Shown one piece after another: positions 3,776 through 23,358 of a stretch of 23,636 nt of DNA. The number at the start of each line of letters is the position of its first letter. The first letter of the stretch is position 1. The DNA comes from Verrucomicrobiota bacterium (lineage in GTDB: Bacteria; Verrucomicrobiota; Verrucomicrobiia; Chthoniobacterales; UBA6821). The notes under the pieces are model-generated. The model did not search any database, had not been told where the DNA came from, and saw only the letters and a program-made list of their open reading frames with translations. The DNA lies in contig VHCR01000001.1 in the NCBI GenBank assembly GCA_016871655.1, positions 1 to 23,636 on the forward strand, read 5' to 3'. A program made the translations under genes and the position numbers.

Positions 3776-3869
3776 AGGGATCGAAGTGATAGAAGATGAA
3801 GAAAAAAATAATATTGCGTATTGGTTTTGAAAAGGTTCTCAATAAATTTTAGCGGTGTATTTTAAAAAT

Positions 3870-8600: not shown

Positions 8601-8632
8601 AGGCTGCAGGCGATAGGCTGTAGGCTGTAGGT
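8601..8632. repeat. Heptamer array, GGCTGTA type
   Basis: Four to five degenerate 7-base units (GGCTGCA, GGCGATA, GGCTGTA, GGCTGTA, GGT) lie upstream of the EVE-domain gene. No clear inverted partner is seen in the same spacer. Confidence 0.65.
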
Positions 8633-9166: not shown

Positions 9167-10431
9167 TTTGCTTTTTTTCTTAACACAACCGGCACTCCCA
9201 AAAGAAAAAGCGCTCCTAAAAAATAAGCGCAGCCGCTCATCGAAATCGTGAGGCTCATCCGCCCGATCGCAGAGGAAGACGCTCCGCCATAGGTTGCGAT
9301 CGCACCGAGCAAGAGTGGGCCTAGCGCTCCGCCAAAATAACCAAAAGAAATCACCAAGCCAGCAGCGCTCCCACGCACATTCGGTTCCATGTAATCAAAG
9401 AGCGCTCCAAAAATTCCGGCGTCGTATCCGCTTTTGCAGAGCCCAAACAAAATCATCATCGCAGCGAGCAGCGAAAATTTTGTTCCTAATCCAATCGCAA
9501 TAATCGCAAATGTTCCCACCAACAGCGAAATCACTTGGACTGCAAGACGCCCATGCTTCATCTTGCGTGTAAGCCAATCTCCGCTCCAACCGCAGAGAGG
9601 AGCGCTTAACGCGCTTGTCAGCTGGATAAAAATGACTGAATAAAAACCGGCTTGGGTTAAAGTCATGTGAAATTTTTCATACAGAAACGTTGGCATCCAG
9701 GTCAGAAAAATCATCGCCACCATGTTGACGCAAACAAAAGCTGCGATCAAAAAAAGGAGCTCAGGACGTTTCATCAAATCACAAAAAGTGAGCGCCACGG
9801 AATGTTGTGATGCAGCGCCGTGACGATGAGAGCGATCAGCTTCTTTTAAAAAGAAAAACAGGATGATCGAAACAATGACACCCAACCCTCCAAAAAAATA
9901 AAATCCATAGCGCCAACCGTAATGCTGCGCCAACCAGGCTCCGAAGGCGCTTCCAGCAATAGTTCCAAAATAGACACCCGATTGATGAAACGAGAGAGCC
10001 GTTGAGCGATGTGCATGCTCGTGATAATCAGCAATCATTGCGTTGGAGGAAGGAAAATAGCACGATTCGCCAAGCCCCTCTAAGCCACGCACCGCCAAGA
10101 ACTGCCAAAATAGAGAACACCATCCCGTCAGCATTGTGACGAGGCTCCAAAACAAACACCCTCCTAGAATCAAATTTTTTCTGTTCACGCGATCGCTTAC
10201 CATCCCCATAAACACAACCAGTGAGGCATAGACCCACATAAAAATTGACCCAATCATGCCGAGTTGAAATTTTGAAAACCCAAACTCTTTTTCAAGCGCT
10301 GGAAAAATGCCGGAGAGGACTTGCCGATCCGCATAATTCAGAAAACAGACCATCCAGAGCATGGCGACAACAATCCAAGCGTAGGAGGTTGTAGGTCGTA
10401 GGTGATAGGTCGTAGGTCGGTCAGAATCCAT
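9163..10431 (-). CDS. MFS transporter, ACS-like (organic anion symporter)
   Basis: A 422-residue inner-membrane carrier with about 12 hydrophobic segments. The first helix SYAWIVVAMLWMVCFLNYAD is followed by the family motif NYADRQVLSGIFPALEKEFG, then the loop 2-3 motif (GMVSDRVNRKNLILGG, an MFS motif A variant), GLGESCYFPSSNAMIADY and STALSFHQSGVYFGTIAGSA. This pattern is typical of the anion:cation symporter and hexuronate or sugar-phosphate groups, and Spinster-like carriers are also similar; the substrate cannot be read from sequence. The predicted N-terminus MDSDRPTTYHLRPTTSYAW is encoded by a GTAGGTC-type heptamer array, with PTTY and PTTS coming from repeat units. The next ATG would lie inside the first helix, so the repeat-coded start is probably real. 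No SD is seen. Confidence 0.88.
   Translation of the reverse strand: MDSDRPTTYHLRPTTSYAWIVVAMLWMVCFLNYADRQVLSGIFPALEKEFGFSKFQLGMIGSIFMWVYASLVVFMGMVSDRVNRKNLILGGCLFWSLVTMLTGWCSLFWQFLAVRGLEGLGESCYFPSSNAMIADYHEHAHRSTALSFHQSGVYFGTIAGSAFGAWLAQHYGWRYGFYFFGGLGVIVSIILFFFLKEADRSHRHGAASQHSVALTFCDLMKRPELLFLIAAFVCVNMVAMIFLTWMPTFLYEKFHMTLTQAGFYSVIFIQLTSALSAPLCGWSGDWLTRKMKHGRLAVQVISLLVGTFAIIAIGLGTKFSLLAAMMILFGLCKSGYDAGIFGALFDYMEPNVRGSAAGLVISFGYFGGALGPLLLGAIATYGGASSSAIGRMSLTISMSGCAYFLGALFLLGVPVVLRKKAN
10381..10421. repeat. Heptamer array, GTAGGTC type, inside the MFS start
   Basis: Units GGAGGTT, GTAGGTC, GTAGGTG, ATAGGTC and GTAGGTC occur in a row, period 7. It forms codons 4 to 17 of the MFS gene and pairs, inverted, with the CCTATAA array at 10513-10537. 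Confidence 0.75.
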
Positions 10432-10512
10432 ATCACTAAGGTTAATACTAATCCCGCGTAATCTGCAGAAAAATTTTCGCTCTGCTTTTTAAATTTATTG
10501 CCGATCTCACAA

Positions 10513-10537
10513 CCCTACTACCTATAACCTATAACCT
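10513..10537. repeat. Heptamer array, CCTATAA type
   Basis: CCTACTA, CCTATAA, CCTATAA, CC: period 7, inverted relative to the array at the MFS start. Together they bracket the roughly 90-base MFS leader, and this array sits 7 bases from the 3' end of the tRNA gene. Confidence 0.7.
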
Positions 10538-10543
10538 TGCAGA

Positions 10544-10633
10544 TGGCGGAGGGGGTGGGATTCGAACCCACGAAGGCTTTTACACCTCTCCGGTTTTCAA
10601 GACCGGTGCAATCAACCACTCTACCACCCCTCC
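10544..10633 (-). tRNA. tRNA-Ser, anticodon TGA, CCA encoded
   Basis: Read on the minus strand, GGAGGGG and CCCCTCC form the acceptor stem, followed by G and an encoded CCA. The anticodon arm is CCGGT-CTTGAAA-ACCGG, so the anticodon is TGA (reads UCA and related serine codons). A variable arm lies between anticodon and T arms, as expected of a class II tRNA, and the T arm GTGGG-TTCGAAT-CCCAC is perfect. It is 90 bases with CCA. Period-7 arrays flank it closely on both sides (10513-10537 and 10638-10670). Confidence 0.97.
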
Positions 10634-10637
10634 TAAA

Positions 10638-10670
10638 CAGGTTGCAGGTTACAGGTTGCAGGCCGCAGGG
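10638..10670. repeat. Heptamer array, GGTTGCA type, at the tRNA 5' side
   Basis: CAGGTTG, CAGGTTA, CAGGTTG, CAGGCCG, CAGGG: clear period 7, starting 5 bases outside the tRNA 5' end. It is opposite in orientation to the array on the other side of the tRNA, though the unit differs. Confidence 0.8.
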
Positions 10671-10742
10671 AACAGAAAAAAATTCAATTACAAAATTGCG
10701 TTATGAAAAATTAACATTTTATTTTAAATACTCGAAATGAAA

Positions 10743-12071
10743 TTAGAAGTTGACCGTCGCGCGCAATCCAACTACTAGCGCATTCCCAACTTGCGATGTT
10801 GCTCCGGGATGAATGATGTATTGCAAATCGGGCTGTAACACCATCCAAGGCGTAACTTGAGCCACATAACTTGTTTCAAAAGCCATTTCATAATTGAGCG
10901 AGGTTGCTGTTACATCAGGCGGTGTAAAAGTCGGATTGCCACCCACATCAGCCTGTGGAGATCTCATTCCATTACTCACTTGTCCATATGCAAAACCAAT
11001 TCCAAAAATATCATTGTGGCGAGTTGGGATAAGGCCTTTGTAGTCAAATCCTGTATCACAATAAAAATCCATAAAGTTACGATCGGAAGGCTCATATGAA
11101 ACACGTCCAAAAACTCCTAGCCCCTCATCACTCAGTTTATGAGATTGTTCATGGCAGCAGGGAGAGCGATAAAGCATTTGATCAATAATTCCATAATATC
11201 CTGTATTCCCCCAAACGGTAGTATTCGGATTATTAACGCTTGGCATTGATCCCGTAAGAAACCAAGCACCTGCCTTAACTTGGCCAGGCATTGCATACTC
11301 TTCATATTGATAGCAAGCCTCACTCATGTACAGAAATCCATTATCTGCACTCAAATCCCAGGTGAAGCCATGATTGTTAACATTTTGAGCAAAGACGTTT
11401 CCTTGATAGACAGCAAACTTCAACGTGAGCGGCTCAATGGGTTTTAATTTCAAATAAACTCCAGGAGCACCCACAGGATAGTTGGGACCACCGTTCGGAA
11501 TACTTGTATAAAGGAACGCAGGCCATCCAAATGTAGAATTAATAAAAATGGCTCCATACTCTGAAATTGCAAAATCAGAATCGGCTTCAAGCTGACCAAC
11601 TCGAAGTGCTACTTTATCATCGACTAATTTCTGCTCAATCCAGAGATCAATATTTCGAAAGGTGCTATAACCAGCAATATTGGAAACTGTAAAAATATTT
11701 CCAACAAGATTCGCCGCAGGATCTTGTCCGTAAAGGTAGAGCCAGCGCGAATAAAAACTAGCCCCTTTCCAGCCCATCAATTTTTCTAAATCGACTGCGG
11801 TCGCTCCCTGCAATAACGAAGTTGTGACACACCCTCGCTGAATTCCTCCCATTGTATTTCCCCACACTTCATTCACCGTAGAAAAACCAATATTGATACC
11901 TCGTTCTTCCAGCCGCTTTCCATAACCCAGCCAATCTTCGGTCAGTGTATCGGATTCTAGCCATGGTTTAAATTTGCGCACGGTCAATTCTGGCTCAGAA
12001 ATAAGAATCGGATCTCCTCGCAGAGGAAAAACGGTAAATAAAAAAAGTAATGGGAGGATATATTTCTTCAT
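10743..12071 (-). CDS. OprB-family outer-membrane porin
   Basis: A 442-residue beta-barrel porin. The start is ATG at 12071, giving a Sec signal (MKKYILPLLFLFTVFPLRGD); a longer frame upstream only re-reads the permease gene. Mature-region features match OprB carbohydrate-selective porins: the N-terminal LGYGKRLEERGINIGFSTVN followed by EVWGNTMGGIQRG, alternating amphipathic strands, a basic-aromatic mid-region, and a terminal phenylalanine (ATVNF) typical of BAM substrates. The start overlaps the stop of the metal ABC permease in an ATGA pair, so it is translationally coupled to that transporter. This suggests the barrel lets the same substrate through the outer membrane, although OprB members are usually linked to sugars. 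A CCHEQSH segment near the middle is rich in possible metal ligands; that is an observation, not proof. Confidence 0.85.
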   Translation of the reverse strand: MKKYILPLLFLFTVFPLRGDPILISEPELTVRKFKPWLESDTLTEDWLGYGKRLEERGINIGFSTVNEVWGNTMGGIQRGCVTTSLLQGATAVDLEKLMGWKGASFYSRWLYLYGQDPAANLVGNIFTVSNIAGYSTFRNIDLWIEQKLVDDKVALRVGQLEADSDFAISEYGAIFINSTFGWPAFLYTSIPNGGPNYPVGAPGVYLKLKPIEPLTLKFAVYQGNVFAQNVNNHGFTWDLSADNGFLYMSEACYQYEEYAMPGQVKAGAWFLTGSMPSVNNPNTTVWGNTGYYGIIDQMLYRSPCCHEQSHKLSDEGLGVFGRVSYEPSDRNFMDFYCDTGFDYKGLIPTRHNDIFGIGFAYGQVSNGMRSPQADVGGNPTFTPPDVTATSLNYEMAFETSYVAQVTPWMVLQPDLQYIIHPGATSQVGNALVVGLRATVNF

Positions 12072-12871
12072 TTTTTGATAATTCCAGCAATTAAGTAACC
12101 TAAAAAAAGAATTCCGGTGATCCAAAAGCTGGGCGGCCAATTCGTATAACATGCCAGAAAAATTCCACTCCAAACGGTCACGAGCGCAATGATAATCGAA
12201 CCCAAAAATCCACTCCAAAAACAATGCGTCAGTCGCGTGGCAATGCTCGCAGGCCCAATAACCAAGGCAAACACCAGCAAAATACCAACGACTTGACTGG
12301 CGAGAGTCACGGCAACAGCAATCAAAAACATAAACCCAATCGACAACCACGTGAGTGAAATACCTCTCGCTTCTGCCAAGTCAGGATGCAGGCTCGCAAA
12401 GAGAAGCCTGCGTGATCCGATCAGTAAAAGCATCATCGTTATTAAAAAAAGAAAAAACATTTGGATTACTTGCTCGCTGGTAACACCAAAAATATTTCCA
12501 AAAAGAATACTGGTCGCTTGCCCAGAGAAACCTTGATAAAGCGATAAAAAAAGCATGCCGATGCCGAGCGCTGCTGAGAGAACCATCCCGATGGCTACAT
12601 CACTCCGCTGCAAGCGCTCTCCGATTGCTCCCATGGCAATTCCCGCGATCACGGCAAGAGCTAGCATTCCATTGAGAGCACTCATTCCGAATATCGCTGC
12701 GCCCGCTGCGCCTGTAAAACCAATGTGTGCGAGCGCATGCACAGCAAATCCAACATGCCTCAAAACGACAAAATATCCAACAATAGCCCCGAGCACAGCT
12801 GCCAGCGATCCTGCGACGAGAGAATGCCTCACAAATTCATAATCGAGATAGCCTGTCCAAAAGTAAGTCAT
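12068..12871 (-). CDS. Metal ABC transporter permease (ABC-3 family)
   Basis: A 267-residue inner-membrane permease of the Zn/Mn/Fe (ZnuB/MntB/YtgC-D) family with about 8 hydrophobic segments. Typical parts are YEFVRHSLVAGSLAAVLGAI at the N-terminus, VVLRHVGFAVHALAHIGFTG, ERLQRSDVAIGMVLSAALGI and DLAEARGISLTWLSIGFMFL followed by VTLASQVVGILLVFALVIGP. I chose ATG at 12871, which gives the family's usual N-terminus; a longer frame to about 13003 is only array and spacer sequence. A GTAACGA-type array lies between this start and the ATPase stop, 79 bases away. The gene ends with an ATGA overlap into the OprB porin. Confidence 0.92.
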   Translation of the reverse strand: MTYFWTGYLDYEFVRHSLVAGSLAAVLGAIVGYFVVLRHVGFAVHALAHIGFTGAAGAAIFGMSALNGMLALAVIAGIAMGAIGERLQRSDVAIGMVLSAALGIGMLFLSLYQGFSGQATSILFGNIFGVTSEQVIQMFFLFLITMMLLLIGSRRLLFASLHPDLAEARGISLTWLSIGFMFLIAVAVTLASQVVGILLVFALVIGPASIATRLTHCFWSGFLGSIIIALVTVWSGIFLACYTNWPPSFWITGILFLGYLIAGIIKK

Positions 12872-12923
12872 TGTTTTAAACGAAGTAATAATTTTATTTG
12901 AAGACTGAAATAACTGCAGAAGA

Positions 12924-12944
12924 AGTAACGCGTAACGGATAACG
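12924..12944. repeat. Heptamer array, GTAACGC type, before the permease
   Basis: GTAACGC, GTAACGG, ATAACG: three period-7 units in the ATPase-permease spacer. It is of the same unit type as the T3SS cassettes at 20005-20156. Only one side is present in this spacer. Confidence 0.65.
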
Positions 12945-12950
12945 ATTTTC

Positions 12951-13763
12951 TCACGCATGAGCGTGTCCACAACAAGTGTTTTCGAGAACATTACTTTCTG
13001 CATTCACGATAAAAACACGGCCTTCTGCGCGAATAACGTGCATGGAGGCTCCATAAAGATGAGTGAGAACATTGTTGGAAAGAACTTCTTCCAACGTTCC
13101 AAGCGCAGCCTTTTTTCCTGCTAAATACCAAACACGATCCATGACATGAAGCAGCGGATTAATATCATGTGTAATAAAAAGAATTGTCGTGCCAGTAATT
13201 TTTTTGATGTTAAAAATAATTTCGACCAACTGTTGCTGATGATAAGGATCTAGACTGGCAAGGGGTTCATCGAGCACCAGCAGTTTTGGTTTTCCCAACA
13301 ACGCCTGCGCCAGCTGTACCCGTTGTTTCTCCCCTCCCGAAAGCTTATGAAATGGTTTTCCCGCGAGATGCTGAAGCTCTACGAGTTTCAAGACTTCATC
13401 AACTTCACGACTCGCTACGGTAGAGCACCACGGCATTCCCCAGTGCTCCCCTGATTGAACGGCCATCATCATGGCACGCACACTCAATCCCACAGTATCT
13501 CCGGTCGTCATCATTTGCGGCATATAGCCAATTTGACGAGAACCTTTTTTTACCGGCTCTCCAAAGAGCCTCATCGTTCCAGCTTCAACACGAATTAATC
13601 CGAGCAAGGCGCGAACCAGGGTCGTTTTTCCCGCCCCATTCGGACCAAAAATACCGATAAATTCTCCAGCATGAATGGTGGCATTCACGTTCTGGAGAAT
13701 TTCATTTTTCCCAGCTTTCAATGAAACATCAGAAAGAAGGATGATGGGATTGCTAATGTTCAT
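12951..13763 (-). CDS. Metal ABC transporter ATP-binding protein
   Basis: A 270-residue ABC ATPase of the zinc/manganese/iron uptake type. Walker A is GPNGAGKTT, the Q loop is in IGYMPQMMTTGDTVGLSVR, the signature is KLSGGEKQRVQLAQAL, Walker B is LLVLDEPLASLDP and the H loop is FITHDINPLLHV. The ATG at 13763 (MNISNP) is preferred; a longer frame begins with TTG in spacer sequence. The C-terminus is extended beyond the core fold and ends in CCGHAHA, a Cys/His cluster that could bind metal. It lies 112 bases after the binding-protein gene, with a paired inverted array in that spacer. Confidence 0.93.
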   Translation of the reverse strand: MNISNPIILLSDVSLKAGKNEILQNVNATIHAGEFIGIFGPNGAGKTTLVRALLGLIRVEAGTMRLFGEPVKKGSRQIGYMPQMMTTGDTVGLSVRAMMMAVQSGEHWGMPWCSTVASREVDEVLKLVELQHLAGKPFHKLSGGEKQRVQLAQALLGKPKLLVLDEPLASLDPYHQQQLVEIIFNIKKITGTTILFITHDINPLLHVMDRVWYLAGKKAALGTLEEVLSNNVLTHLYGASMHVIRAEGRVFIVNAESNVLENTCCGHAHA

Positions 13764-13800
13764 TTTATTTTTCGAAAATTGATGTTTCAAAAAAAATTCA

Positions 13801-13861
13801 TTTCAAAGAGCACAAAAGAAAGAAATCATAATTTGTTTGTGTTCCTTGTTTTCTTTTGTGG
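13801..13861. repeat. Paired inverted CACAAAGAA-type array
   Basis: Two imperfect inverted halves, TTTCAAAGAGCACAAAAGAA and TTGTTTTCTTTTGTGG, face each other around a short A/T-rich centre containing TCATAATT (TTATGA on the minus strand). The transcript of this spacer would form a long imperfect hairpin. The same type of unit occurs between tsf and ptsN. Confidence 0.65.
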
Positions 13862-13875
13862 CTATTTTCTTCCTC

Positions 13876-14742
13876 CTATTTTTCTAGCAAAGCATGTTCA
13901 ACACTGCTGAGTTGATCAAGCATCCACGATTGATAATTAGGAACACTCAGCGGTTGTAACTCCGTAATGCCAACAATCGGAATATGATTTTTTTCTGCTA
14001 AATTTTGTAATTGCTGAGTCGAAGGACTCGTCACCTGACGATTATAAAAAAGAAGTCTCACTTTTTTAGCATTAAGGCTCTCATGATAATCGGCAATCTG
14101 CTGAAAACTTGGCTCCGTGTCATTCATGATGGCCCATTGATAATTTTCGTGAAGCATCTTCCACCCCAAAGCATTTGCCATCGGTGTGAATAGGGGCTCG
14201 GTTGCTGTTACAGGAAGATTGGGATAATGTGCTTTTAAAAAAGCTATTTTTTCAAAAATCGGATTCATCTCTTGATAAAAATGAACTGCAGCGGAAGGGA
14301 TTTTTAAAACTTCTGACAATTGATCAGCTAACAACAACATGGTTGCGGGATTATACCAAAAGTGAGGATTTTGTTTTGGCTCCTTTTTAACAAAATCGGC
14401 AACATTGATCACGACGCGATTAGGATTTCCTTTTGTGGCAATCAGTTTATCGATCCAAGAATCATAACCGTCACCATTTTTAATCACGATATCGGCATCT
14501 GCAACTTCCTTTGCTGTTGCTGCTGTTGGTTGAAATTCGTGAGGATCTTGATTGGGATTGTTCAGGATGCACACGACGCAGACCTTTTTTCCGCCTACTT
14601 GCCGAGCGATGTCGCCATAAAAATTTTCTGCAGCAACAATTCGAATGGGTCGAAAAGAGGCGTTTGAGTTTTTTGCAGCAATCAAACTACTGCTAAAAAA
14701 AGCGACCAGCGCTAAGAAGAATATTTTTGAAAAAGCACTCAT
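13876..14742 (-). CDS. Metal-binding lipobox-free periplasmic protein (TroA/ZnuA family)
   Basis: A 288-residue substrate-binding protein of the cluster A-I (Zn, Mn or Fe) ABC importers. A Sec signal (FSKIFFLALVAFFSSSLIAA) precedes RIVAAENFYGDIARQVGGKK. Expected metal ligands are in NQDPHEFQPTAATAKEVADA (first His) and NPHFWYNP (second His). Later DTEPSFQQIADYHESL and TELQPLS complete the typical C-lobe. There is no Cys in a lipobox, so it is probably soluble. Start ATG at 14742 places the signal correctly; a longer frame from 14784 only reads a palindrome. The start codon lies inside one arm of a perfect 40-bp palindrome, and no SD precedes it. It heads the unit: binding protein, ATPase, permease, porin. 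Metal identity cannot be told from sequence. Confidence 0.92.
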   Translation of the reverse strand: MSAFSKIFFLALVAFFSSSLIAAKNSNASFRPIRIVAAENFYGDIARQVGGKKVCVVCILNNPNQDPHEFQPTAATAKEVADADIVIKNGDGYDSWIDKLIATKGNPNRVVINVADFVKKEPKQNPHFWYNPATMLLLADQLSEVLKIPSAAVHFYQEMNPIFEKIAFLKAHYPNLPVTATEPLFTPMANALGWKMLHENYQWAIMNDTEPSFQQIADYHESLNAKKVRLLFYNRQVTSPSTQQLQNLAEKNHIPIVGITELQPLSVPNYQSWMLDQLSSVEHALLEK

Positions 14743-14776
14743 TTTTATTGATAAATTATTATCAATAAAAATGAGT
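14737..14776. promoter_or_regulatory. Perfect 40-bp palindrome over the metal operon start
   Basis: Two 18-base arms, ACTCATTTTTATTGATAA and its exact complement, surround ATTA. The core TTGATAA-ATTA-TTATCAA resembles Fur-family boxes (TGATAAT-type). The binding protein's ATG (14742-14740) is in one arm, so the site could act as an operator for a Fur/Zur/DtxR-like repressor or as an mRNA hairpin hiding the start codon. Confidence 0.75.
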
Positions 14777-14826
14777 ACTGTCAACTTTTTTGATAATGAG
14801 GGCCTGTCATCAATTAATCATTTTCT

Positions 14827-14835
14827 ATTTTAGCA
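14827..14835 (-). promoter_or_regulatory. Possible extended -10 of the metal transporter operon
   Basis: On the minus strand TGCTAAAAT has the TGN extension and a TAAAAT -10. The same TGCTAAAAT occurs in front of sctD (17015-17007). A start near 14820 would give a leader of about 78 bases that contains the whole palindrome. Confidence 0.35.
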
Positions 14836-14847
14836 CAGAAAAAATAA

Positions 14848-15012
14848 TATAGTGTATTAAATTGAAAAGGGCATGTTAGAAGCGCTGAAATTTTTTCTTA
14901 GAACAAGGCCGAAGATCGAAGCGCTATCCGAAGATAACATGAGATCTGAGAACGCAGTTCTAAGGAAAAAGAGCAAGCTTATCGCGTGCCCTTTTCAATT
15001 TAATACACTATA
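14848..15012. mobile_element. 165-bp MITE-like element with 26-bp perfect inverted ends
   Basis: The ends are exact inverted repeats over 26 bases beginning TATAGTGTATTAAATTG; similarity continues inward imperfectly to TTCTTAGAAC and its partner GTTCTAAGGAA. There is no coding capacity. The outer TA on each side fits a TA target, as in IS630/Tc1-mariner elements, so this is probably a non-autonomous element moved by a transposase elsewhere. Immediately outside, AAAAAATAA and TTATTTTTT extend the symmetry further. Confidence 0.75.
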
Positions 15013-15195
15013 GTTTATTTTTTAGAACGAGGTCACTATACGCCGAACTGCGATTCCCGCGAATGCGGAAAAGAATACTATGGGTCCTCGCCTTCGTAGG
15101 AAGGACACTTATTATGTAAGCGCTACTAGATTAAAATTAGTAAGAACTGTTCTTTTATTGATGGGGATTTTGATACTTTGAAATGATGACAGAAT
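15013..15195. other. Gene-free spacer beside the MITE
   Basis: Together with the flanking MITE this makes a gap of over 400 bases. It contains a small hairpin (GTCCTCGCCTTCGTAGGAAGGAC region, about 15090-15112) and the 10-mer CTACTAGATT at 15123-15132, which recurs inverted at 15193-15202 across the stop of the next gene. No gene or terminator with a T-run is evident. Confidence 0.4.
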
Positions 15196-15450
15196 CTAGT
15201 AGCCACCAAAACCCATGCTATCATCTTGCTCCACAAGAACCTTATCTAAAATCCGACCAGCAATAGTCAAGGCTCGCATCATAGCTTCTAGGCGAGACAA
15301 CTGCTCACGATCAACTTCTTTTTTAACCTTTTCTTCCGTTTGACGTCGCAGCTCCAAGACGCGATTGCGAAGCATTCCACGATAGCTTCCATTGCGATCG
15401 TTCGTGAGATGTTTTCCCATATCTGTTAACTGCTTCTTTTCGGTATGCAT
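15196..15450 (-). CDS. Small helical protein, SctE-like needle chaperone candidate
   Basis: An 84-residue protein, mostly two helices (MLRNRVLELRRQTEEKVKKE, then REQLSRLEAMMRALTIAGRI) with a short DDSMGFGGY tail. It directly follows sctD on the same strand, the position of yscE or cdsE, whose products are small helical co-chaperones of the needle subunit. The C-terminal helix pattern is like that of YscE, but similarity this short is weak evidence. The expected next genes, sctF (needle) and sctG, are not here; a MITE and the metal operon follow instead. ATG at 15450 is chosen; ATG at 15420 (MGKHLT) is possible. No SD. Confidence 0.5.
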   Translation of the reverse strand: MHTEKKQLTDMGKHLTNDRNGSYRGMLRNRVLELRRQTEEKVKKEVDREQLSRLEAMMRALTIAGRILDKVLVEQDDSMGFGGY

Positions 15451-15527
15451 AAAAGGAATCTAAGTTTTACAAAAAGAAATCTCTTATGTCAACAATTCGT
15501 CATTCATGCGCGAAGCGCCTTACATGG

Positions 15528-15553
15528 CCTGCAACCTGTACCCTGTATACCTT
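15528..15553. repeat. Heptamer array in the sctD-sctE spacer
   Basis: On the minus strand: GGTATACAGGGTACAGG TTGCAGG, period 7, starting 5 bases beyond the sctD stop. A hairpin AGGCGCTTCGCGC lies next to it. Only one side is seen in this spacer. Confidence 0.65.
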
Positions 15554-15557
15554 TCGT

Positions 15558-16934: not shown

Positions 16935-16937
16935 AAA

Positions 16938-17061
16938 CAGGTTGCAGGACTAAAAAGAACTACCTTTGCTCCAATTGATATTTTGTAATACGGTTTCATT
17001 TTTTTGATTTTAGCATAAGCCTTACTTTGATCTGTAACATGCAACCTGTAACCTGTAACCT
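16938..17061 (-). promoter_or_regulatory. sctD promoter cassette between inverted heptamer arrays
   Basis: On the minus strand the spacer reads: array AGGTTACAGGTTACAGG (17061-17032), then an extended -10 TGCTAAAAT at 17015-17007, then array CCTGCAACCTG (16948-16938), then the sctD ATG. The two arrays share the GTTACAG unit in opposite orientation. A run of read-through RNA from sctV could pair the arrays, while RNA started at the -10 could not. Promoter activity is inferred. Confidence 0.5.
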
Positions 17062-17104
17062 TAGTCTCTACAAGCCCATATTTTCTAGCTTCCAAAGCAT
17101 CAAC

Positions 17105-19237
17105 TCACAACGAAATACGTCCGAGCGGCTGAATATTAATCTCCTCTGTCAACTCCTGGTGAGAAAGAACATTGAGATTAGGAATATCGAGTTCAATTAA
17201 TTTTTTCATGTAGCGTCGCACATCCATGGAGGTGATTAATACAGGAGGCCGCTCTTTCATAGAAATATCACCAACCTGAGCTTTGACATTATCGATGAGT
17301 CGCTTGCTCGTTGCAGGGTCCATGGCTAAGAAACTTCCGGCAGATGTTTGCCGAATCGCTTTTCTAATTTGCTCCTCCGCAGCGGGCTCTAGAATGTAGG
17401 CAACAAGGACATTCCGGCCGCCGCTAAAATGATAGCTGATATAACGACGTAGAGCGATTCGCACATATTCGGTCAGCAACAACACATCTTTTTCTTTAGG
17501 AGCCCACTCGATCAATGCTTGAAAAATCAGACGAAGATTGCGGATGGAAATATCTTCTTGAACAAGACGCTGCAAGACTTCTGCAATTTTAGTCGGTGGC
17601 AACACGCGTTGCACTTCTCGAATAACTTCTCCATTTTCTGCTTCCATTTGCGAAAGCAAGGTTCGCGTTTCCTGCAACCCAATAAAGTCAGCAGCATATT
17701 TTTTGAGAATTAAAGAAATGTGGAAGCTCAATAACTTCGCTGAGTCCATACCAAACAATCCAATTTGTTGAAGTAATTTTTGCTGTGATCCTGCAACCCA
17801 GACTGCTGGAATTTGATCAGGAGGATGTTCGACAGGCTCAAAGGGAATATGAAAAGCTAATAAGTGTTCTTGACTCTCTTTGACATAAAGATAACCAGGC
17901 CTCAACACACCCATCGACATCGGCACTTCTTGGAGGAGTAATTGATATTGCCCCTTTTTAAGATTTTCATTAAATCGCAAATGAATACCTGGAAAAGGCA
18001 CCCCCAGGTCGTGATAGAGCGCACGCCGTACATAAATCAATTCATCATTTAAAGCCTCAGGTGAAATTTGTTCTTGGATAGCAGCATCAATTTCTAACAA
18101 AACGGGAACTGTAATAGAAAAATCATTCTCCTTAGCCGGTTCTTCCCCGGGCTTTCCTCCTCCCGCGGGACTTCCAGGAGTACCGCTACCCGCAGCTGCT
18201 GCTGGTGTTTTGCCGGGAGATAATAAAACAGAACCTTTTTTAAGCAGTGGTTGCAATGTTCCTCGCTGAAGCATGTACCCAAACGACAAAATAAAAATCG
18301 CCAAAATACCAAATTGAATTTTTGGAAATCCAGGAACAACAACAAGACCGAGCAAGATTACTCCCGCGATGATCATCGCTTTTGGCACCGCCAACACCTG
18401 CCCAAAAATATCAGTACCAAGACCCGCTTTTTCTTCCGAGCCAGTACGCGTGACAATAATACCTGCTGTGATGGTAATCAAAAGACCTGGAATCTGCGAT
18501 ACCAAAGCATCACCAATTGACAAGATGGAATAAGTCTGAACCGCAGCACCCACCTGCATTTTTTTCATCAGCACTCCAATGGTAATTCCTGCGATAATGT
18601 TAATCGAAACAATGATCAATGTTGCGATTGCATCTCCTTTTACGAATTTCATAGCACCATCCATCGCACCAAACACTTGGCTCTCTTTTTCAACATTCGA
18701 ACGTCGACGTTGCGCTTCTTTAATATCAATCACCCCTGCTCTCATATCGGCATCAATACTCATTTGCTTACCGGGCATAGCATCCAACGTAAAACGAGCA
18801 GCTACTTCTGCTACACGTTCAGAACCTTTGGTGACAACGATGAATTGAACAACGAGCAAGATTAACCAGACAACGACACCGACTACAAAATTTCCTCCAA
18901 CAACAAAATTTCCGAAAGCATAAATGACCTCTCCTGCATAACCATCGAGCAAGATCATACGCGTGGAAGTAATATTGAGCGACAATCGAAAGAGTGTTGT
19001 AATCAGGAGGACACTCGGGAAGGTCGAAAAGGCTAAGACCGTAGGCACATAAAGAGCCATCATGACCAAAATAATCGAGATTGTGAGGTTCAACGAAATG
19101 AGGCTATCCAACAACCATGCCGGAATCGGCAAAATGAAAAGCGCAATAATCGCAATAATCAGAATCGCGATATAAAGATCTCCAAATTTCTGTGCGCGGG
19201 TAACCCAGCCATGAAGTTGGTTTAAAAAATCAGTCAT
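17105..19237 (-). CDS. sctV: T3SS export gate protein SctV (YscV/LcrD/CdsV)
   Basis: A 710-residue export apparatus protein of the FHIPEP family, which forms the nonameric gate that receives substrates from the ATPase. The first 330 or so residues hold 7 to 8 membrane segments; the FHIPEP-type motif RFTLDAMPGKQMSIDADMRA and NVEKESQVFGAMDGAMKFVK are diagnostic. A Gly/Pro/Ala-rich linker (about 345 to 375, TPAAAAGSGTPGSPAGGGK) joins the cytoplasmic nonamer domain, which contains EWAPKEKDVLLLTEYVRIAL and the C-terminal RPPVLITSMDVRRYMKKLIE. Several features (Ysc-like neighbours SctX and SctY) favour the T3SS branch over flagellar FlhA. The ATG overlaps the sctY stop (ATGA), indicating coupled translation. 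Confidence 0.96.
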   Translation of the reverse strand: MTDFLNQLHGWVTRAQKFGDLYIAILIIAIIALFILPIPAWLLDSLISLNLTISIILVMMALYVPTVLAFSTFPSVLLITTLFRLSLNITSTRMILLDGYAGEVIYAFGNFVVGGNFVVGVVVWLILLVVQFIVVTKGSERVAEVAARFTLDAMPGKQMSIDADMRAGVIDIKEAQRRRSNVEKESQVFGAMDGAMKFVKGDAIATLIIVSINIIAGITIGVLMKKMQVGAAVQTYSILSIGDALVSQIPGLLITITAGIIVTRTGSEEKAGLGTDIFGQVLAVPKAMIIAGVILLGLVVVPGFPKIQFGILAIFILSFGYMLQRGTLQPLLKKGSVLLSPGKTPAAAAGSGTPGSPAGGGKPGEEPAKENDFSITVPVLLEIDAAIQEQISPEALNDELIYVRRALYHDLGVPFPGIHLRFNENLKKGQYQLLLQEVPMSMGVLRPGYLYVKESQEHLLAFHIPFEPVEHPPDQIPAVWVAGSQQKLLQQIGLFGMDSAKLLSFHISLILKKYAADFIGLQETRTLLSQMEAENGEVIREVQRVLPPTKIAEVLQRLVQEDISIRNLRLIFQALIEWAPKEKDVLLLTEYVRIALRRYISYHFSGGRNVLVAYILEPAAEEQIRKAIRQTSAGSFLAMDPATSKRLIDNVKAQVGDISMKERPPVLITSMDVRRYMKKLIELDIPNLNVLSHQELTEEINIQPLGRISL

Positions 19238-19581
19238 TTAAATTGAAGAAATTGATACGCAGCCATACCTGAATCTTCAAGTCGTTGTAACCTCCACAAC
19301 ACACGACTCAAGATTAAAAAAGTTGCTGCTCGTTCTTGTTGAGTCATCTCTAATTCAAGACTCTCTTCTAAAATTTCTTTCGCTCGAGCTGGATTACCTG
19401 ATTCCAACTCACTCCGTGCTAAAGCCCGCAGCAAGCGACTCTCACTCGGACGTAATTTGACCAAGAGCCTCAAATAATCACGAGCTCGTTCCGGCTTTCC
19501 ATAGATCATATAAAGATAACTCAACACATCCAGCAGTGCATGCAACCGTTCTCGATGGCTAGGATGAAGGTGTCGACTCAT
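19234..19581 (-). CDS. sctY: TPR protein, SctY (YscY-like) export chaperone
   Basis: A 115-residue protein of three TPR-like helical pairs: LLDVLSYLYMIYGKPERARD, LRALARSELESGNPARAKEI, and a C-terminal ILSRVLWRLQRLEDSGMAAY pair ending in QFLQFK. In Yersinia YscY (114 residues) is a TPR chaperone that binds the early substrate YscX and docks on YscV, and the gene order yscX-yscY-yscV is the same as here. The end, LSR followed by AYQFLQFK, has the same layout as the YscY end, which closes with a 'LSRA...AYQHYLELK' pattern. I use ATG 19581, giving the YscY length; TTG or GTG starts near 19620 would overlap sctX and add 12 to 13 residues. Coupled by ATGA to sctV. Rated below certainty because TPR similarity is general. 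Confidence 0.72.
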   Translation of the reverse strand: MSRHLHPSHRERLHALLDVLSYLYMIYGKPERARDYLRLLVKLRPSESRLLRALARSELESGNPARAKEILEESLELEMTQQERAATFLILSRVLWRLQRLEDSGMAAYQFLQFK

Positions 19582-19609
19582 TGGTGAGAAAAAAACAGAT
19601 TCATTATGA

Positions 19610-19996
19610 TTACCCACCAAGAAGAGTTCGTCGAAATGCTGCTAACAATTCGTGATTCATGATTTCTTCTTGGAGCATCTCTTGAACACGAGCAATATCA
19701 TGCATAGGAGCAATTCCTCCTGCTGCGTCAAGGAGGGGCACCATATCGGCAATCAATGATTTGAGGGATTCTTTTGACAAAATTTTGAGCGTCTCCGGTG
19801 GAAGATTCAGTGAATTCGTCTCTACCTCATCAAGCTGATAACTTTTAAAGAGCTCTTCCAACTTACCTCCAACGGGCGCTTCTCCTAATACTGGTGGCGA
19901 GGGATCTTCTTTTGGCAAGGCAGCAAAAGGAGTAAACTGACTAACAGTAATGACTCCTGACGTAAAATCAAATGGCGAAAGACCCTCGATGGACAT
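19610..19996 (-). CDS. sctX: SctX (YscX-like) early T3SS substrate candidate
   Basis: A 128-residue protein at the position of yscX, directly before a YscY-like gene and sctV. It begins MSIEGLSPFDFTSG, has a Pro-rich disordered region (FAALPKEDPSPPVLGE), then helices ending VQEMLQEEIMNHELLAAFRR. YscX is 122 residues, with a similar 'GIEKLS' opening and a helical C-terminus that binds YscY. Sequence identity is low, so synteny carries most of the weight. The ATG at 19996 is chosen; a longer frame starting at TTG 20056 would be made only of heptamer array and hairpin sequence. A YscX-YscY pair is a mark of the Ysc family and is not known to me in standard chlamydial T3SS. Confidence 0.6.
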   Translation of the reverse strand: MSIEGLSPFDFTSGVITVSQFTPFAALPKEDPSPPVLGEAPVGGKLEELFKSYQLDEVETNSLNLPPETLKILSKESLKSLIADMVPLLDAAGGIAPMHDIARVQEMLQEEIMNHELLAAFRRTLLGG

Positions 19997-20004
19997 GGGA
20001 AGAA

Positions 20005-20156
20005 AGTAACGGGTAACGAGTGGCGAGTAACGAGTGAAGTTACTTGCCTTCGGCAAATTTATAAAACAATAACGCTATCATAACACGTTAATTTAATCAA
20101 TTCGATGAACTTCGCCTATTTGCTTACTCGCTACCCGCCACCCGTTACTCGCTACT
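20005..20156 (-). promoter_or_regulatory. T3SS cassette A: array, TGTTATGAT promoter, hairpin, array
   Basis: On the minus strand, toward sctX: a GTAACGA/GTAGCGA array (20156-20123, overlapping the chaperone stop), AAATAGGCGAAGTTC, an extended -10 TGTTATGAT (20085-20077), hairpin TTGCC-GAA-GGCAA (20056-20044), then the inverted array CTCGTTACTCGCCACTCG (20038-20005), 9 bases before the sctX ATG. Cassette B at 20651-20773 is a diverged copy on the other strand. Promoter function is inferred. Confidence 0.6.
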
Positions 20157-20511
20157 GCAGCATCTTATCCATCGTGTCAGTCAATCCATCCAGAGCCTGA
20201 GAAAGAAAAGCTGCAGTTACTTCACTCTCTTCAAAAATATAAAAAATCCCAAGCATTTCATCATGAACTTGCGCATGGAGTGGATGAAAATTGTTTTCTT
20301 TAAAATGACACATTCCTAAAATATTTCGTGCACTAAATAAATAAGGATTTTCAATTTTTCTAGTCAGCCCCATGAGTAACTTATTTTTGATATTAAAAAA
20401 TTGAAGATCACCAACTCCCTCAATCGAAAGGCGCAGCTTGCCCTCCTCTCCCATCAAGACTCCTTGGAGCCCATATTGATTACAAAATTCTTGAATGGTA
20501 TCTGAAATCAT
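20152..20511 (-). CDS. T3SS chaperone, SycN-like
   Basis: A 119-residue small acidic protein with the alpha/beta layout of class I T3SS chaperones: an N-terminal helix MISDTIQEFCNQYGL, central strands GKLRLSIEGVGDLQFFNIKN, another strand pair ILGMCHFKENN and GIFYIFEESE, and a final helix AFLSQALDGLTDTMDKML. The opening and the closing helix resemble SycN, which with YscB chaperones YopN in Yersinia, and the order sycN-yscX-yscY-yscV is the Ysc order. The gatekeeper sctW, its likely partner, is on the opposite strand 1 kb away. The ATG follows the array motif CCTGTAACCTG by 5 bases, with no SD. CesT/SycE-type chaperone is the alternative. Confidence 0.6.
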   Translation of the reverse strand: MISDTIQEFCNQYGLQGVLMGEEGKLRLSIEGVGDLQFFNIKNKLLMGLTRKIENPYLFSARNILGMCHFKENNFHPLHAQVHDEMLGIFYIFEESEVTAAFLSQALDGLTDTMDKMLQ

Positions 20512-20515
20512 GAAA

Positions 20516-20549
20516 ACAGGTTACAGGGTACAACGTTTCAGGGTACAGG
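20516..20549. repeat. Heptamer array before the SycN-like gene
   Basis: Plus strand: AACAGGTTACAGGGTACAAC then GTTTCAGGGTACAGG, period 7, GTTACAG type. On the coding strand of the chaperone gene it reads CCTGTAACCTG just before the ATG. Its best inverted match is the array before sctW, about 1 kb away. Confidence 0.65.
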
Positions 20550-20650
20550 AAATATTCGAGTTAATTTTGATATGTAGACTCTGTCCTAGGGGATTTCTGT
20601 TTTAGTGTTATGATTCCAGAAGCTTGATGAGTTCTGGTGTTTCAAACAAA

Positions 20651-20773
20651 GTACCGAGTAACGAGTAACGATTGAATAGGCTGAAACTCACTATTCCGAC
20701 AATATTGGCATGTTATGATGTCGTTATTTTTTATGAATTTGCCGTAGGCAACTATTGCATTCGTTACTAGTGA
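20651..20773 (+). promoter_or_regulatory. T3SS cassette B: array, TGTTATGAT promoter, hairpin, array
   Basis: Plus strand: GAGTAACGAGTAACGATT (20656-20673 region), AATAGGCTGAAACTC, extended -10 TGTTATGAT (20711-20719), CGTTATTTTTTATGAATT, hairpin TTGCC-GTA-GGCAA (20739-20751), then TCGTTACTAG. It matches cassette A throughout but in the opposite direction, pointing at the SPOA gene. The hairpin loop differs (GTA against GAA) while both arms are kept. Confidence 0.6.
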
Positions 20774-20933
20774 CTTTTTCTATAGTTGCATCGATCATCA
20801 AACAACAATAGACCTGCATTTTCAAAAACGACTCACTTTTCAATAGGCTCTATGTATTCTGAGAAGTCGATTTTTTGAGGTGCTGATGCGTTGGTGGTTT
20901 GACCTCTCTTGAAATTTGGGTTATGAATGGAAC

Positions 20934-21470
20934 ATGCTTGATCCTGAAGAAAAAAAAACAGAGCCAGAACAAAACCCTTCTTCAGTAGCAGAGAATTCCA
21001 TTCCTGCCTCAGAAAATTTGAGCCTTTCTGAGTCAAGAGAAGAGGTTGTTTTAGAAGCTGCTCAGGCAGCAACGCTACCACAAAGGAATCCTTTGCAATC
21101 TGCTCCTCTTCCAAAAGTGGAGTTAAAAAAACATGCGACAGCTGTAGCTCTGCCGCATACAGCAACACCGCCTGCTTCAGGAGCTCCAGCTTCACTTACA
21201 ACGGAACCAGTTTTAACTAGCCTCAAAAAAGAAGATAATACGAATTTGCCTCGATTATCAATAGAAGTAGAAATAGATTTTGTCTTAGATCGCAAGTGCA
21301 TTCCCTTGTCAGCATTGAGCACTCTTGCCGTAGGAGAGATGATCACGTTGAGTGGTGCTGATTTTAAGGCGACACTCTTTTTGCAAGAAAAAGCAATTGG
21401 AGAAGGAGAACTCGTGCTGGTCGACGAAAAGCCAACGATTCAAATAACAAAAATTTTTAATGTCTCTTGA
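20934..21470 (+). CDS. Single-SPOA SctQ/FliN-like C-ring protein
   Basis: A 178-residue protein. The first 105 or so residues are Ser/Pro/Ala/Glu-rich and look disordered (ALPHTATPPASGAPASLTTE). The C-terminal 70 residues are a SPOA domain: RLSIEVEIDFVLDRKCIPLS, ALSTLAVGEMITLSGADFKA, and GEGELVLVDEKPTIQITKIF. SPOA domains build the cytoplasmic sorting platform (SctQ) or flagellar C-ring (FliN). A full SctQ has about 300 residues and two SPOA domains; here only the C-terminal one is present, resembling the short SctQ-C product made by internal initiation in other systems. The start is uncertain: ATG 20934 is used, TTG 20916 is possible. Its position between cassette B and sctW supports a T3SS role. 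A minus-strand frame over it is a shadow. Confidence 0.75.
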   Translation: MLDPEEKKTEPEQNPSSVAENSIPASENLSLSESREEVVLEAAQAATLPQRNPLQSAPLPKVELKKHATAVALPHTATPPASGAPASLTTEPVLTSLKKEDNTNLPRLSIEVEIDFVLDRKCIPLSALSTLAVGEMITLSGADFKATLFLQEKAIGEGELVLVDEKPTIQITKIFNVS

Positions 21471-21503
21471 GCGAAAGATTCATTGAGAATTTTTTTTGCT
21501 GCG

Positions 21504-21532
21504 ACCTGTAACCTGGAACCTGTAACCTGCAG
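21504..21532. repeat. Heptamer array just before sctW
   Basis: ACCTGTAACCTGGAACCTGT then AACCTGCAG, period 7 (CCTGTAA, CCTGGAA, CCTGTAA, CCTGCAG). It ends 3 bases before the sctW ATG, where a ribosome binding site would normally be. Confidence 0.8.
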
Positions 21533-21535
21533 CAC

Positions 21536-22735
21536 ATGTTTAACACACGCATCACTTCTCGACATTACGAGCCAGTAGGAGGTGGCATAGATACTTCCGA
21601 TCTGCAGGGCGTGGGGCTTTATCGTGGCAGAGAAATCAAAAAATCAAAAGTCAGTGATGATATCGATTTTGGCGTGCACGAAGAGCAAGATGATCAGGAG
21701 GGAAAATCATCAGGGAGCTCTAAAGGAGAATTAAAAATCAAATTTCAAGAACGTGAAAAACAAGCTTTTTCTGATGAGCAAGAACACCTTCCTGACTTTG
21801 AAGAATTTGCTAATTCTCCTGGGTTTAAAAAATTCATGGCTCAACTTCGAAAGGGGCAACGGAGTGAGACCTACGAAGAAATTAAGGAAGCTTTAGACAC
21901 GACCTTCGATGATCCAACATTAAAGCATGCTGCGCTTGTTGGAGCTATCAAACTTTTGGAAGACCAGCCTGATCAAGAAGAGCTCAAAGAATTATTGCAG
22001 CAGATTCTTAACGAATTGCTTGATAGCAGCGGTGCTGAGGTGCGAGCAGGTTACAATGTTTCTCATGTTGCTGAGTCGATGTCGGAAGGGGCAACAGATC
22101 TCATCGCACAACTTCGAGATTTTTATTGTCAGGTTGTTTTTAGCGATCAAAGCCTTGTTGATACTTATCGTACCATCATGAACGATTTTCCAGATCAAGT
22201 AGAGCGAGAAAAAAAAGAGAAAGAAAAAAAGAACAAGCAGCAGTATGTACCCGAAGAGGTCGATGGTCCCGAAGGGCAACTGCGATTAGAAAAAGCATTA
22301 GAATTTCTTATGAAAGGATTGGGAGCAGAATTAAAATCCAATCGCCCCTCTTTAGAGCCAGGGATGCTAAAAAAAGTTTTGGATGGAATTTGTGGAATGG
22401 AGTTTTTTCGTAATACGTATCGTAACTTTTTGGAAATGCTGACCAAATTAAACAAAGATTGCCAAAGCATTCCCATAAAACCATCACGGCTCATTAACGA
22501 AATATTGAATCGTGTCATCCAAGACAAAATTAGCGATGAAGATTTTTTAAAAGTTGCTCAACAATTTGGTGTCCCTCCATTGCAACTTTCCATTTATTTT
22601 TTAACACGAGTTTATGAAATGGTGCGTCTTTTCCCGGAACGTATTTTTCCGAGTGGGAAAAATAGAGAAGTTTGTTTAACTGCTATTCAACATGCATTAG
22701 ACTCCGCCATTGCAAGAGAAAGTGAAGTCGCATAG
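21536..22735 (+). CDS. sctW: T3SS gatekeeper SctW (YopN-TyeA/CopN family)
   Basis: A 399-residue gatekeeper that controls the switch from translocator to effector secretion. The N-terminus is polar and disordered (about 1 to 75, MFNTRITSRHYEPVGGG), as expected for a secreted plug with a chaperone-binding region. The three-helix-bundle repeats follow: FKKFMAQLRKGQRSETYEEI, HAALVGAIKLLEDQPDQEEL and EVRAGYNVSHVAESMSEGAT, which has the HrpJ/YopN-type pattern. The C-terminal part, QFGVPPLQLSIYFLTRVYEM onward, corresponds to TyeA, so YopN and TyeA are fused as in CopN (about 420) rather than split as in Yersinia. A charged EKKEKEKKNKQ insertion lies at about 225. ATG, no SD; a CCTGTAACCTG array lies just before it. 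It follows the SPOA gene by 65 bases. Confidence 0.85.
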   Translation: MFNTRITSRHYEPVGGGIDTSDLQGVGLYRGREIKKSKVSDDIDFGVHEEQDDQEGKSSGSSKGELKIKFQEREKQAFSDEQEHLPDFEEFANSPGFKKFMAQLRKGQRSETYEEIKEALDTTFDDPTLKHAALVGAIKLLEDQPDQEELKELLQQILNELLDSSGAEVRAGYNVSHVAESMSEGATDLIAQLRDFYCQVVFSDQSLVDTYRTIMNDFPDQVEREKKEKEKKNKQQYVPEEVDGPEGQLRLEKALEFLMKGLGAELKSNRPSLEPGMLKKVLDGICGMEFFRNTYRNFLEMLTKLNKDCQSIPIKPSRLINEILNRVIQDKISDEDFLKVAQQFGVPPLQLSIYFLTRVYEMVRLFPERIFPSGKNREVCLTAIQHALDSAIARESEVA

Positions 22736-22798
22736 AGTCTATCCAAATGCCCTGTGAGCGAAAGGTGTGTTCTTGGTGCTTAATTTTCTTCCTTGCTT

Positions 22799-23275
22799 CT
22801 ACTTTTCACGCCGTAAGATTTGCATGATGTCATTCGCATCATGAGCATTGGTCAGAGCTTCACGCGTGGCGCGATCATTGAGAAATTTAGCAATCGCAGA
22901 AAGTGTTTTGAGGTGCGTTTGAAATTGGGCAGCAGGAACAAGAAAGAGAACGACAAAATGGACAGGCTTGCTATCAAGCGACTCAAATTCAATTCCTGTT
23001 TGAGAACGTCCGAAGGCAATCACAATTTTATCGACAGCCTCTGAGGAAGCATGAGGAACGGCTACTCCAAAACCAATACCCGTACTCATCGTCTCTTCAC
23101 GATGAAACAAAGAACCAAGAATATTTTCTTTTTCTTTTCTGGGAAGATGTCCCCCTTCGACTAAAAAGGAAACGATCTCCTCAATGGCTTGCCATCTTTC
23201 TGTGGCTTGCAAATTTGGGATAATCTGACTCTCGCAGAGTAGAGTTCCTAAAGTTTCTGAAAGTGGCAAATTCAT
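22799..23275 (-). CDS. PTS IIA-like protein (PtsN family)
   Basis: A 158-residue EIIA of the fructose/nitrogen-regulatory type. The phosphorylatable histidine is in GFGVAVPHASSEAVDKIVIA; KENILGSLFHREETMSTGIG precedes it and PVHFVVLFLVPAAQFQTHLK follows, all as in PtsN proteins. No EIIB or EIIC is fused or nearby, so a regulatory role (nitrogen-type phosphotransfer chain) is likelier than sugar transport. The ATG has no SD; a paired inverted array separates it from tsf upstream. It faces sctW with 63 bases between the stops, where I find no terminator. It may be co-transcribed with tsf. Confidence 0.85.
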   Translation of the reverse strand: MNLPLSETLGTLLCESQIIPNLQATERWQAIEEIVSFLVEGGHLPRKEKENILGSLFHREETMSTGIGFGVAVPHASSEAVDKIVIAFGRSQTGIEFESLDSKPVHFVVLFLVPAAQFQTHLKTLSAIAKFLNDRATREALTNAHDANDIMQILRREK

Positions 23276-23298
23276 GAATGAGGAAAGAAGAAGAATTC

Positions 23299-23358
23299 AC
23301 CACAAAGAAAACAAAGAACACAAATTCATTTTTTGCGCTCTTTGCGTTCTTTGCGGTT
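23299..23358. repeat. Paired inverted array, CGCAAAGAA type, tsf-ptsN spacer
   Basis: On the minus strand AACCGCAAAGAACGCAAAGA begins the left half and TTTGTGTTCTTTGTTTTC begins the right half, around a short A/T-rich centre. Units have period 9. The halves pair as a long imperfect hairpin; the left uses GCAAAGAAC and the right ACAAAGAAC, so G-to-A changes are tolerated by G-T pairing. Confidence 0.75.

Follow-up and report, generated by a model that had tools for sequence, protein, structure and literature searches.

Short tandem arrays stand in inverted pairs in the spacers of a 23,636-nucleotide stretch of a Verrucomicrobiota bacterium (GenBank assembly GCA_016871655.1, contig VHCR01000001.1, positions 1 to 23,636; "the window" below means this whole stretch) and elsewhere in its genome. 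These pairs are probably the arms of intergenic elements resembling foldback elements and miniature inverted-repeat transposable elements (MITEs). The elements would belong to several families and spread as units, with arms matched through family founders and through slippage and template switching. An earlier note, made from the window's letters, had read each pair as specific to its spacer and kept by pairing, a reading that is mostly unsupported. There is no accepted explanation for the period of 7 or for the convergent pairing of heptamer arrays in bacterial spacers. With many families, shared loops, bursts and close relatives, movement and two-arm unit change become testable.

Paired arrays in the window and its genome

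We sampled 41 of the 350 contigs of the window's genome (G000; 555,952 of 1,797,839 bases, window included) and two relatives in the same genus, G004 and G005, whose nucleotide identity to each other is 89-93% in the one stretch aligned. In the G000 sample, a scan for inverted repeats with arms within 600 bp returned 92 with a score of at least 18, 40 of them with periodic arms (one first-order Markov control gave 0). In an element, ~50-250 bp in total, a purine-rich tandem array (~31 nt; unit length 6-9 bases) is followed by a loop, in most cases of 10-180 bp, and then by the inverted array. When neighbouring arrays less than 300 bp apart are classed as purine-rich (R) or pyrimidine-rich (Y), the order in this sample is R-Y in 52 cases, YY in 12, RR in nine and Y-R in seven. 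Arrays also occur singly (181 of 292 lie outside any detected pair). The claim that left and right arrays match within a spacer held for 29 period-7 pairs, where arm similarity is 0.754 inside a pair and 0.394 across pairs (none of 20,000 permutations did as well), and the claim that the unit differs between spacers was borne out genome-wide.

Overall, the lists of paired elements hold 61 (G000), 54 (G004) and 31 (G005) entries, some of which are chance array neighbours inside genes; 10, 1 and 4 entries, respectively, fall within called genes, and eight of the G004 entries are TA-flanked MITEs. As had been proposed, the arrays are mainly intergenic and not equally common in genes. Given gene calls that are crude (both here and for the orientation counts below), period-7/14 arrays number 109 outside and 43 inside genes in G000, 90 and 22 in G004, and 67 and 25 in G005; in G000, where genes cover 87%, period-7 arrays are ~18-fold denser outside. 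An outside control of 80 loci from other genomes (1.51 Mb) contained four periodic inverted repeats, and its array order was R-Y 15, YY 11, Y-R 10 and RR 8. Two of the four have loops of comparable size, both in the rumen genome RUG11483 (see below).

In the window, Tandem Repeats Finder (TRF) listed arrays at most of the places named in the earlier note, which had described pairs in six spacers. We compared each left arm with the reverse-complemented right arm, using 500 shuffles per spacer. In four of the six spacers, no shuffle reached the observed score. The first lies between a gene for a major facilitator superfamily (MFS) protein and tRNA-Ser (left AGGTYRT-type array at 10386..10419, + strand, from TRF; right AGGTTAT/AGGTAGT array at 10514..10537, - strand, TRF 10520-10537). 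This pair had been thought to precede a gene start; it ends instead at the tRNA-Ser gene. On the other side, the left array possibly runs into the MFS frame; across 10361-10431 it may be part of the MFS 5' coding end, with the gene start possibly rewritten by it. In the sctX/chaperone spacer, TRF arrays of AGTAACG/AGTGGCG (20005..20037, +) and AGTAACG/AGTRGCG (20125..20156, -) enclose a loop at 20038..20124. Upstream of the SPOA gene, an AGTAACG array (20650..20671, +, TRF) and ~2 inverted AGTAACG units (20761..20775, -) enclose a loop at 20672..20760. The fourth pair, in the ptsN/tsf spacer, consists of TRF-listed 9-mer arrays of CACAAAGAA (23302..23324, +) and CGCAAAGAA (23332..23355, -), and the two stretches compared there overlap by 5 bases.

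The other two spacers gave less. In the sctD/sctV spacer the match is weaker (p=0.004), the left side being a remnant of ~1.5 AGGTTGC units (16938..16948, +) facing a TRF-listed AGGTTAC array (17032..17061, -); at the left position, both G004 and G005 have a longer AGGTTGC array. In the binding-protein/ATPase spacer, the arms of a degenerate CACAAAGAA-type 9-mer pair read from the sequence (13804..13861, no strand assigned; arms ~13804-13822 and 13836-13861) were not significantly matched in 500 shuffles (p=0.17); the right arm resembles, by eye, a 9-mer element of G004. The left arm of the ptsN/tsf pair scores 20 against the right arm of the ATPase spacer and 17 against its own, and the left arm of the ATPase spacer scores 12 against the tsf right arm and 11 against its own. 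Arm matching is thus not always spacer-specific, even within the window. The inverted-repeat scan added one pair that the earlier note lacked, of GATGGAAG 9-mers (3770..3796, +, and 3891..3917, -), whose arm match was reached by none of 500 shuffles.

Unit families, shared loops and turnover

The units in the sampled genomes include the heptamers AGGTTAC, AGGCTGT, AGGCTGA, GRAGATR and AGTRANG, as well as GTTGAAGC (8 bases), AGTTGAAG (6/13) and the 9-mers CACAAAGAA and GATGGAAGC. Commonest are AGGCTGT, AGGTTAC and GRAGATR in G000; AGGTTAC, AGGCTGA, AGGTTGC and AGTAATG in G004; and AGTAAAG, AGTAACG and AGGTTAC in G005. The G-tracts (GGG) that make Xanthomonas-type units (see below) able to form quadruplexes are absent from the commonest units (AGGTTAC, AGGCTGT, GRAGATR and AGTAACG), but variants with GGG exist (23 AACGGGT and 23 AGGGTAA copies in G005). 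Units are not, as had been supposed, private to a spacer; they belong to genome-wide families, and orthologous spacers often have no element or one of another family.

When the similarity of an element's own two arms is compared with that of arms from different elements, five of eight sets (7 to 14 elements each) show no excess: GRAGATR (0.718 vs 0.712, p 0.37), AGGCTRT (0.698 vs 0.687, p 0.30), AGGCTRA (0.587 vs 0.626, p 0.96), AGTRAAG (0.600 vs 0.656, p 0.995) and AGTRACG (0.746 vs 0.744, p 0.46). Much of the match within a spacer is therefore family membership. An own-arm excess was found in the 9-mers (0.770 vs 0.611, 0/5000), in AGTTKRAG (0.712 vs 0.644, p=0.049) and in the pooled AGG class (0.649 vs 0.535, p=0.0002).

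Loops are shared as well. Homologous loops occur at different loci in GAAGAT, AGTTGAAG, AGTAACG and AGGCTGT elements, some in both orientations. In the window, the element at 20005-20156 has an interior homologous to that of the element at 20650-20775 but oppositely oriented (score 72, against at most 31 in 300 shuffles). The first of the two is 75% identical over its whole length to one on another contig of the same genome (G000:C5) and had no match in plasmids. Single-linkage clustering of the 129 entries with loops of 30-300 bp (eight of them ordinary TA-flanked MITEs) placed 91 in clusters and left 38 singletons, and the two large clusters (40 and 35 entries) mix unit families.

The claim that pairing is kept while units drift is mostly unsupported, but some observations favour it. 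The two arms agree at the positions by which unit types differ: position 6 of RGTRANG is identical in 21 of 21 (expected 13.1), and in the AGG class, into which the pattern also drew some 9-mer and GAAGAT elements, positions 4 and 7 each agree in 32 of 37 (16.6 and 18.7 expected), as does the purine-degenerate position 6 in 25 of 37 (expected 16.6). Other purine-degenerate positions were not above expectation (RGTRANG positions 1 and 4; GRAGATR position 7, 5/15, expected 7.5). There are also a few loops with different units in both arms. The element at L055:2889 (left AGGCTRT, right AGG-NN-T) has an alignable loop in its orthologue at L208:8469 (AGGCTRA, with a right arm of ~1.5 units only), and the loop of the AGTAACG element at L202:3186 matches that of the AGTAAAG element at L208:10259 (loop score 47; best of 300 shuffles 36). 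A loop lineage common to AGGCTGT, AGGCTRA and AGGCTAC elements is weakly supported and not relied on (loop scores 52, 38 and 42; best shuffles 40, 35 and 42). At L055:2889-3267 and L208:8469-8829, small hairpins outside both arrays are conserved between the species, and cTTCGg-type hairpins like these adjoin other arrays.

Turnover between the relatives is frequent. Of 54 G004 entries, 14 could be placed in the G005 sample, where by eye two have the same family, five another array family, one has lost an arm and six have no array (one of these six entries being an ordinary MITE). In the other direction, 11 of 31 were placed (three same class, two partial, four other family, two none); two spacers occur in both lists. 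For spacers with an array motif in the first-named genome of a pair, motif labels sort the orthologous spacers of the other genome into those lacking a motif, those with a different family and those with a family in common; the counts are 13, 11 and 4 for G000-G005, 8, 4 and 3 for G000-G004, and 14, 5 and 7 for G004-G005. Where both spacers carry an array, the family label differs in 11/15 (G000-G005), 5/12 (G004-G005) and 4/7 (G000-G004). Bursts are genome-specific: across whole genomes, the GRAGATR 20-mer has 113 matches in G000 (control 3), 3 in G005 and 0 in G004, and 2-11 in each of five sister-genus genomes, one of which has 6 control matches. The exact AGGTTAC 18-mer was found in 3 of 22 family genomes and in none of three other genomes of the genus, and the exact paired 9-mer pattern in 2 of 288 phylum genomes. 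GAAGAT elements are nested inside 9-mer elements (L043, L089; by eye). This pattern of turnover, bursts and nesting is the look of mobile-type repeats.

Several element families coexist in one genome, distinguished by their units and in many cases by a loop that can be recognised. The scatter of homologous loops over different loci, the presence of elements at some sites and absence at others, and the nesting all suggest that elements spread as whole units. Their arms would match mainly by inheritance of matched arms from the family founder. The founder's arms would in turn have become matched most likely by slippage within an array combined with template switching from one inverted arm to the other, and through the same two processes arms may now and then change unit together, a renewal that would be rare. 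Transposition as such, like template switching, is something that we infer. Template switching is reported to make inverted-repeat arms alike and to invert the spacers between them (PMC8604942).

Slippage and template switching could also act in place, the first making an array and the second copying it across a hairpin, so that spacers drift with homogenised arms and nothing transposes. The both-arm unit change around a conserved loop (L055/L208), the agreement at RGTRANG position 6, the greater likeness of own arms among the 9-mers and within the pooled AGG class, and the orthologous spacers whose arrays differ in unit, some of them with edges at the same places, are what such an origin would give. 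We nevertheless regard it as unlikely, given loops common to different loci, genome-specific bursts, nested elements and the five arm sets in which own arms are no more alike than those of other copies.

Selection and mobility

Several observations weigh against elements that spread as units from matched founders. Array carriage is correlated between orthologous spacers: for G000-G005, 15 have an array in both, 13 and 6 in one only, and 51 in neither (Fisher p=3e-5; p=0.001 for spacers of at least 60 bp in both), although the correlation is weaker elsewhere (G004-G005 p=0.03, or 0.20 after the length cut; G000-G004 p=0.03, or 0.12). Most simply, this comes from tolerant spacers, but a kept function would explain it too. 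The compared sites are not clean insertions, as several nucleotides beside the element differ as well. Target-site duplication is not clear in the 131 elements compared (mean flank match 3.52 vs 3.33 shuffled; 7 matches of length at least 6, with ~3 expected). The test is weak, since the position of an arm end is uncertain by roughly one unit. In the combined sample of 1.58 Mb, we found no autonomous copy with arms of this kind. Finally, template switching cannot be frequent now, because own-arm excess is absent in five of eight sets. Among candidates for an autonomous copy were five R...Y matches of unpaired arrays 300-5000 bp apart; they were rejected, since inspection by eye showed ordinary genes within four of them, and the fifth to be a G004 element with a nested MITE.

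If the pairs were instead functional cis elements (RNA hairpins, terminators, insulators or protein-binding sites), selection would keep the pairing whatever the unit. Constant polarity, similar arm size, the tendency of orthologous spacers to retain some array element, frequently from a different family, and the strong predicted hairpin of the one element folded (19998-20160, z -7.4) are in line with this. However, when 87 elements from tandem spacers are read on the sense strand, mismatches between arms are G.U in 53 cases and A.C in 51. Selection on RNA pairing should favour G.U, yet G.U equals A.C, so there is no sign of it; an RNA structure kept by selection was rejected for lack of this asymmetry. 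Nor is there a clear preference among tandem, divergent and convergent spacers, for which reason a terminator or promoter role was rejected: pairs number 36, 8 and 6 of 50 in G000 (background 138, 44 and 31 of 213 spacers) and 33, 10 and 7 of 50 in G004, TA-flanked MITEs included (background 130, 47 and 35 of 212). In G005 (20, 5 and 0 of 25; background 93, 34 and 19 of 146) convergent pairs are lacking, in a small sample. Many orthologous sites have no array, and a search of three other genomes of the genus gave no exact AGGTTAC 18-mer. Kept cis elements are therefore improbable in our view, and whole-element spread from matched founders is preferred, because G.U equals A.C and no selection on RNA pairing is seen.

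The elements are shorter than 500 bp, multicopy and bounded by inverted repeats, as MITEs are, and their terminal inverted repeats are made of tandem subrepeats, as in foldback elements. Membership among MITEs is not claimed because there is no clear target-site duplication and no autonomous copy. True MITEs or repetitive extragenic palindromic (REP)-type elements, moved by a transposase of the same genome (Y1/HUH or IS630-type DDE), are improbable. What speaks for them is that, of the six genomes of the genus, exactly the three array-rich ones (G000, G004 and G005) have Y1_Tnp and DDE_3 matches; however, these three probably form a single clade, in which case the correlation could reflect one event. 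Moreover, the array elements lack a clear target-site duplication, and no period-7 array lies within 2.5 kb of three of the five Y1 matches (two of the three are at a contig end, with one side missing), whereas REP elements and their associated transposases would call for one. Repeated GACCCC-type flanks adjoin two of the three Y1 genes examined. The Y1 transposase was rejected as mover, there being no such arrays beside these three genes.

Three side observations concern more ordinary repeats. The window has an ordinary MITE-like element at 14848-15012, with inverted ends of ~27 bp starting TATAGTGTATTAAATTGAAAAGGGCATG. A distinct MITE family, TATAGTCAAATTACTTAG, has 14 copies in the samples, all in G004, and was perhaps moved by an IS630-type transposase (DDE_3 is present). 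At 8290-8346 of the window, AAAAGGGGTC repeats and a TGGTGCCAGTGCATTA segment resemble, by eye, the flanks of the G004 and G005 Y1 (REP-type) transposase genes.

Related repeats and further features of the window

The earlier note knew of no described element with paired arrays. This does not stand: in two Xanthomonas genomes, Rehm et al. 2015 (PMC4692102) report GGGAATC heptamer arrays that form 70 and 75 convergent inverted pairs, so the paired-array architecture is already in print. There, 83% of the arrays are in the same gene context between two species, and no function was found. The likeness extends to intergenic position near a gene end, arrays mostly of four units, convergent pairing and a G-rich arm first. 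One unit type was studied there, whereas here there are at least eight, with shared loops and frequent loss or replacement.

The TAACTGA repeats of Beggiatoaceae (PMC4679880) and the cyanobacterial heptanucleotide repeats (PMC4692102) are also abundant intergenic heptamer arrays, but both are direct, with one inverted case in the genome in the former and few pairs in Nostoc in the latter. Foldback elements and Galileo of Drosophila (PMC3573991) share internally repetitive terminal inverted repeats of variable copy number; they are eukaryotic and kilobase-sized, and the Galileo transposase is of the P superfamily, whereas the arms here are ~31 nt long and the evidence that these elements transpose is comparative. 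Bacterial MITEs (PMC10969869; BrickBuilt, PMC4596501) are likewise short, intergenic and multicopy with inverted-repeat ends. Unlike MITEs as described in PMC10969869, the elements here have no clear target-site duplication and have tandem arrays as arms. In BrickBuilt (PMC4596501) the repeats form the body between small inverted-repeat ends, whereas here they form the arms. Our literature search, for which subscription journals were mostly out of range, found no report of a genome in which many paired unit families occur together with shared loops. Apparently new here, then, are many unit families per genome, shared loops, turnover and bursts.

It is conceivable, if rather doubtful, that a general bacterial foldback class exists in which the sequence of the arms would not matter for movement but their architecture would (a purine-rich 5' arm, ~31 nt, period 6-9). 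If so, the unit would be free to diversify, with the two arms still matching each other. Arrays of this architecture, built from other units, occur in the published Xanthomonas data and in RUG11483, where the GTGCTTG 18-mer has 548 matches at no more than two mismatches (control 8). The order there is G-rich then C-rich in 6 cases vs 1 (4/5 stretches were chosen for arrays, not for order). RUG11483 loci L106, L258, L265 and L268 have the heptamer units GTGCTTG, GATTGAG, GTGGCTA and GGACAAA, mostly G-rich then C-rich.

The window also holds solo arrays. TRF listed an 8-mer array of AGGTGAAG (5629..5662, +), AGGCTGT (8601..8631, +), AGGTTGC (10637..10669, +; on the other side of the tRNA-Ser gene placed by the tRNA search), AGGTTAC/AGGGTAC (20516..20549, +) and AGGTTAC (21504..21529, -), the last corresponding to a G004 spacer with an AGTAATG pair. 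Degenerate arrays of AGTAACG (12923..12944, +) and AGGTTGC/AGGGTAC (15528..15551, -) were read from the sequence and are not in the TRF list. A long open reading frame with its stop at 7845 has at its end a tandem repeat of ~156 bp in 3.2 copies (7669-8182).

At gathering thresholds, tRNA was the sole Rfam match in the window. A SctV scan of genome contigs gave no relative above 56% identity among the 80 loci kept. The Pfam scan of ten window reading frames identified SctV (FHIPEP), SctD, a SycN-type chaperone, a SPOA protein, a HrpJ/TyeA protein and parts of a zinc-type ABC system. The gene pair for the SPOA and HrpJ/TyeA proteins (20895-22731) is inverted in G004 (L057:16821-18745) relative to the window.

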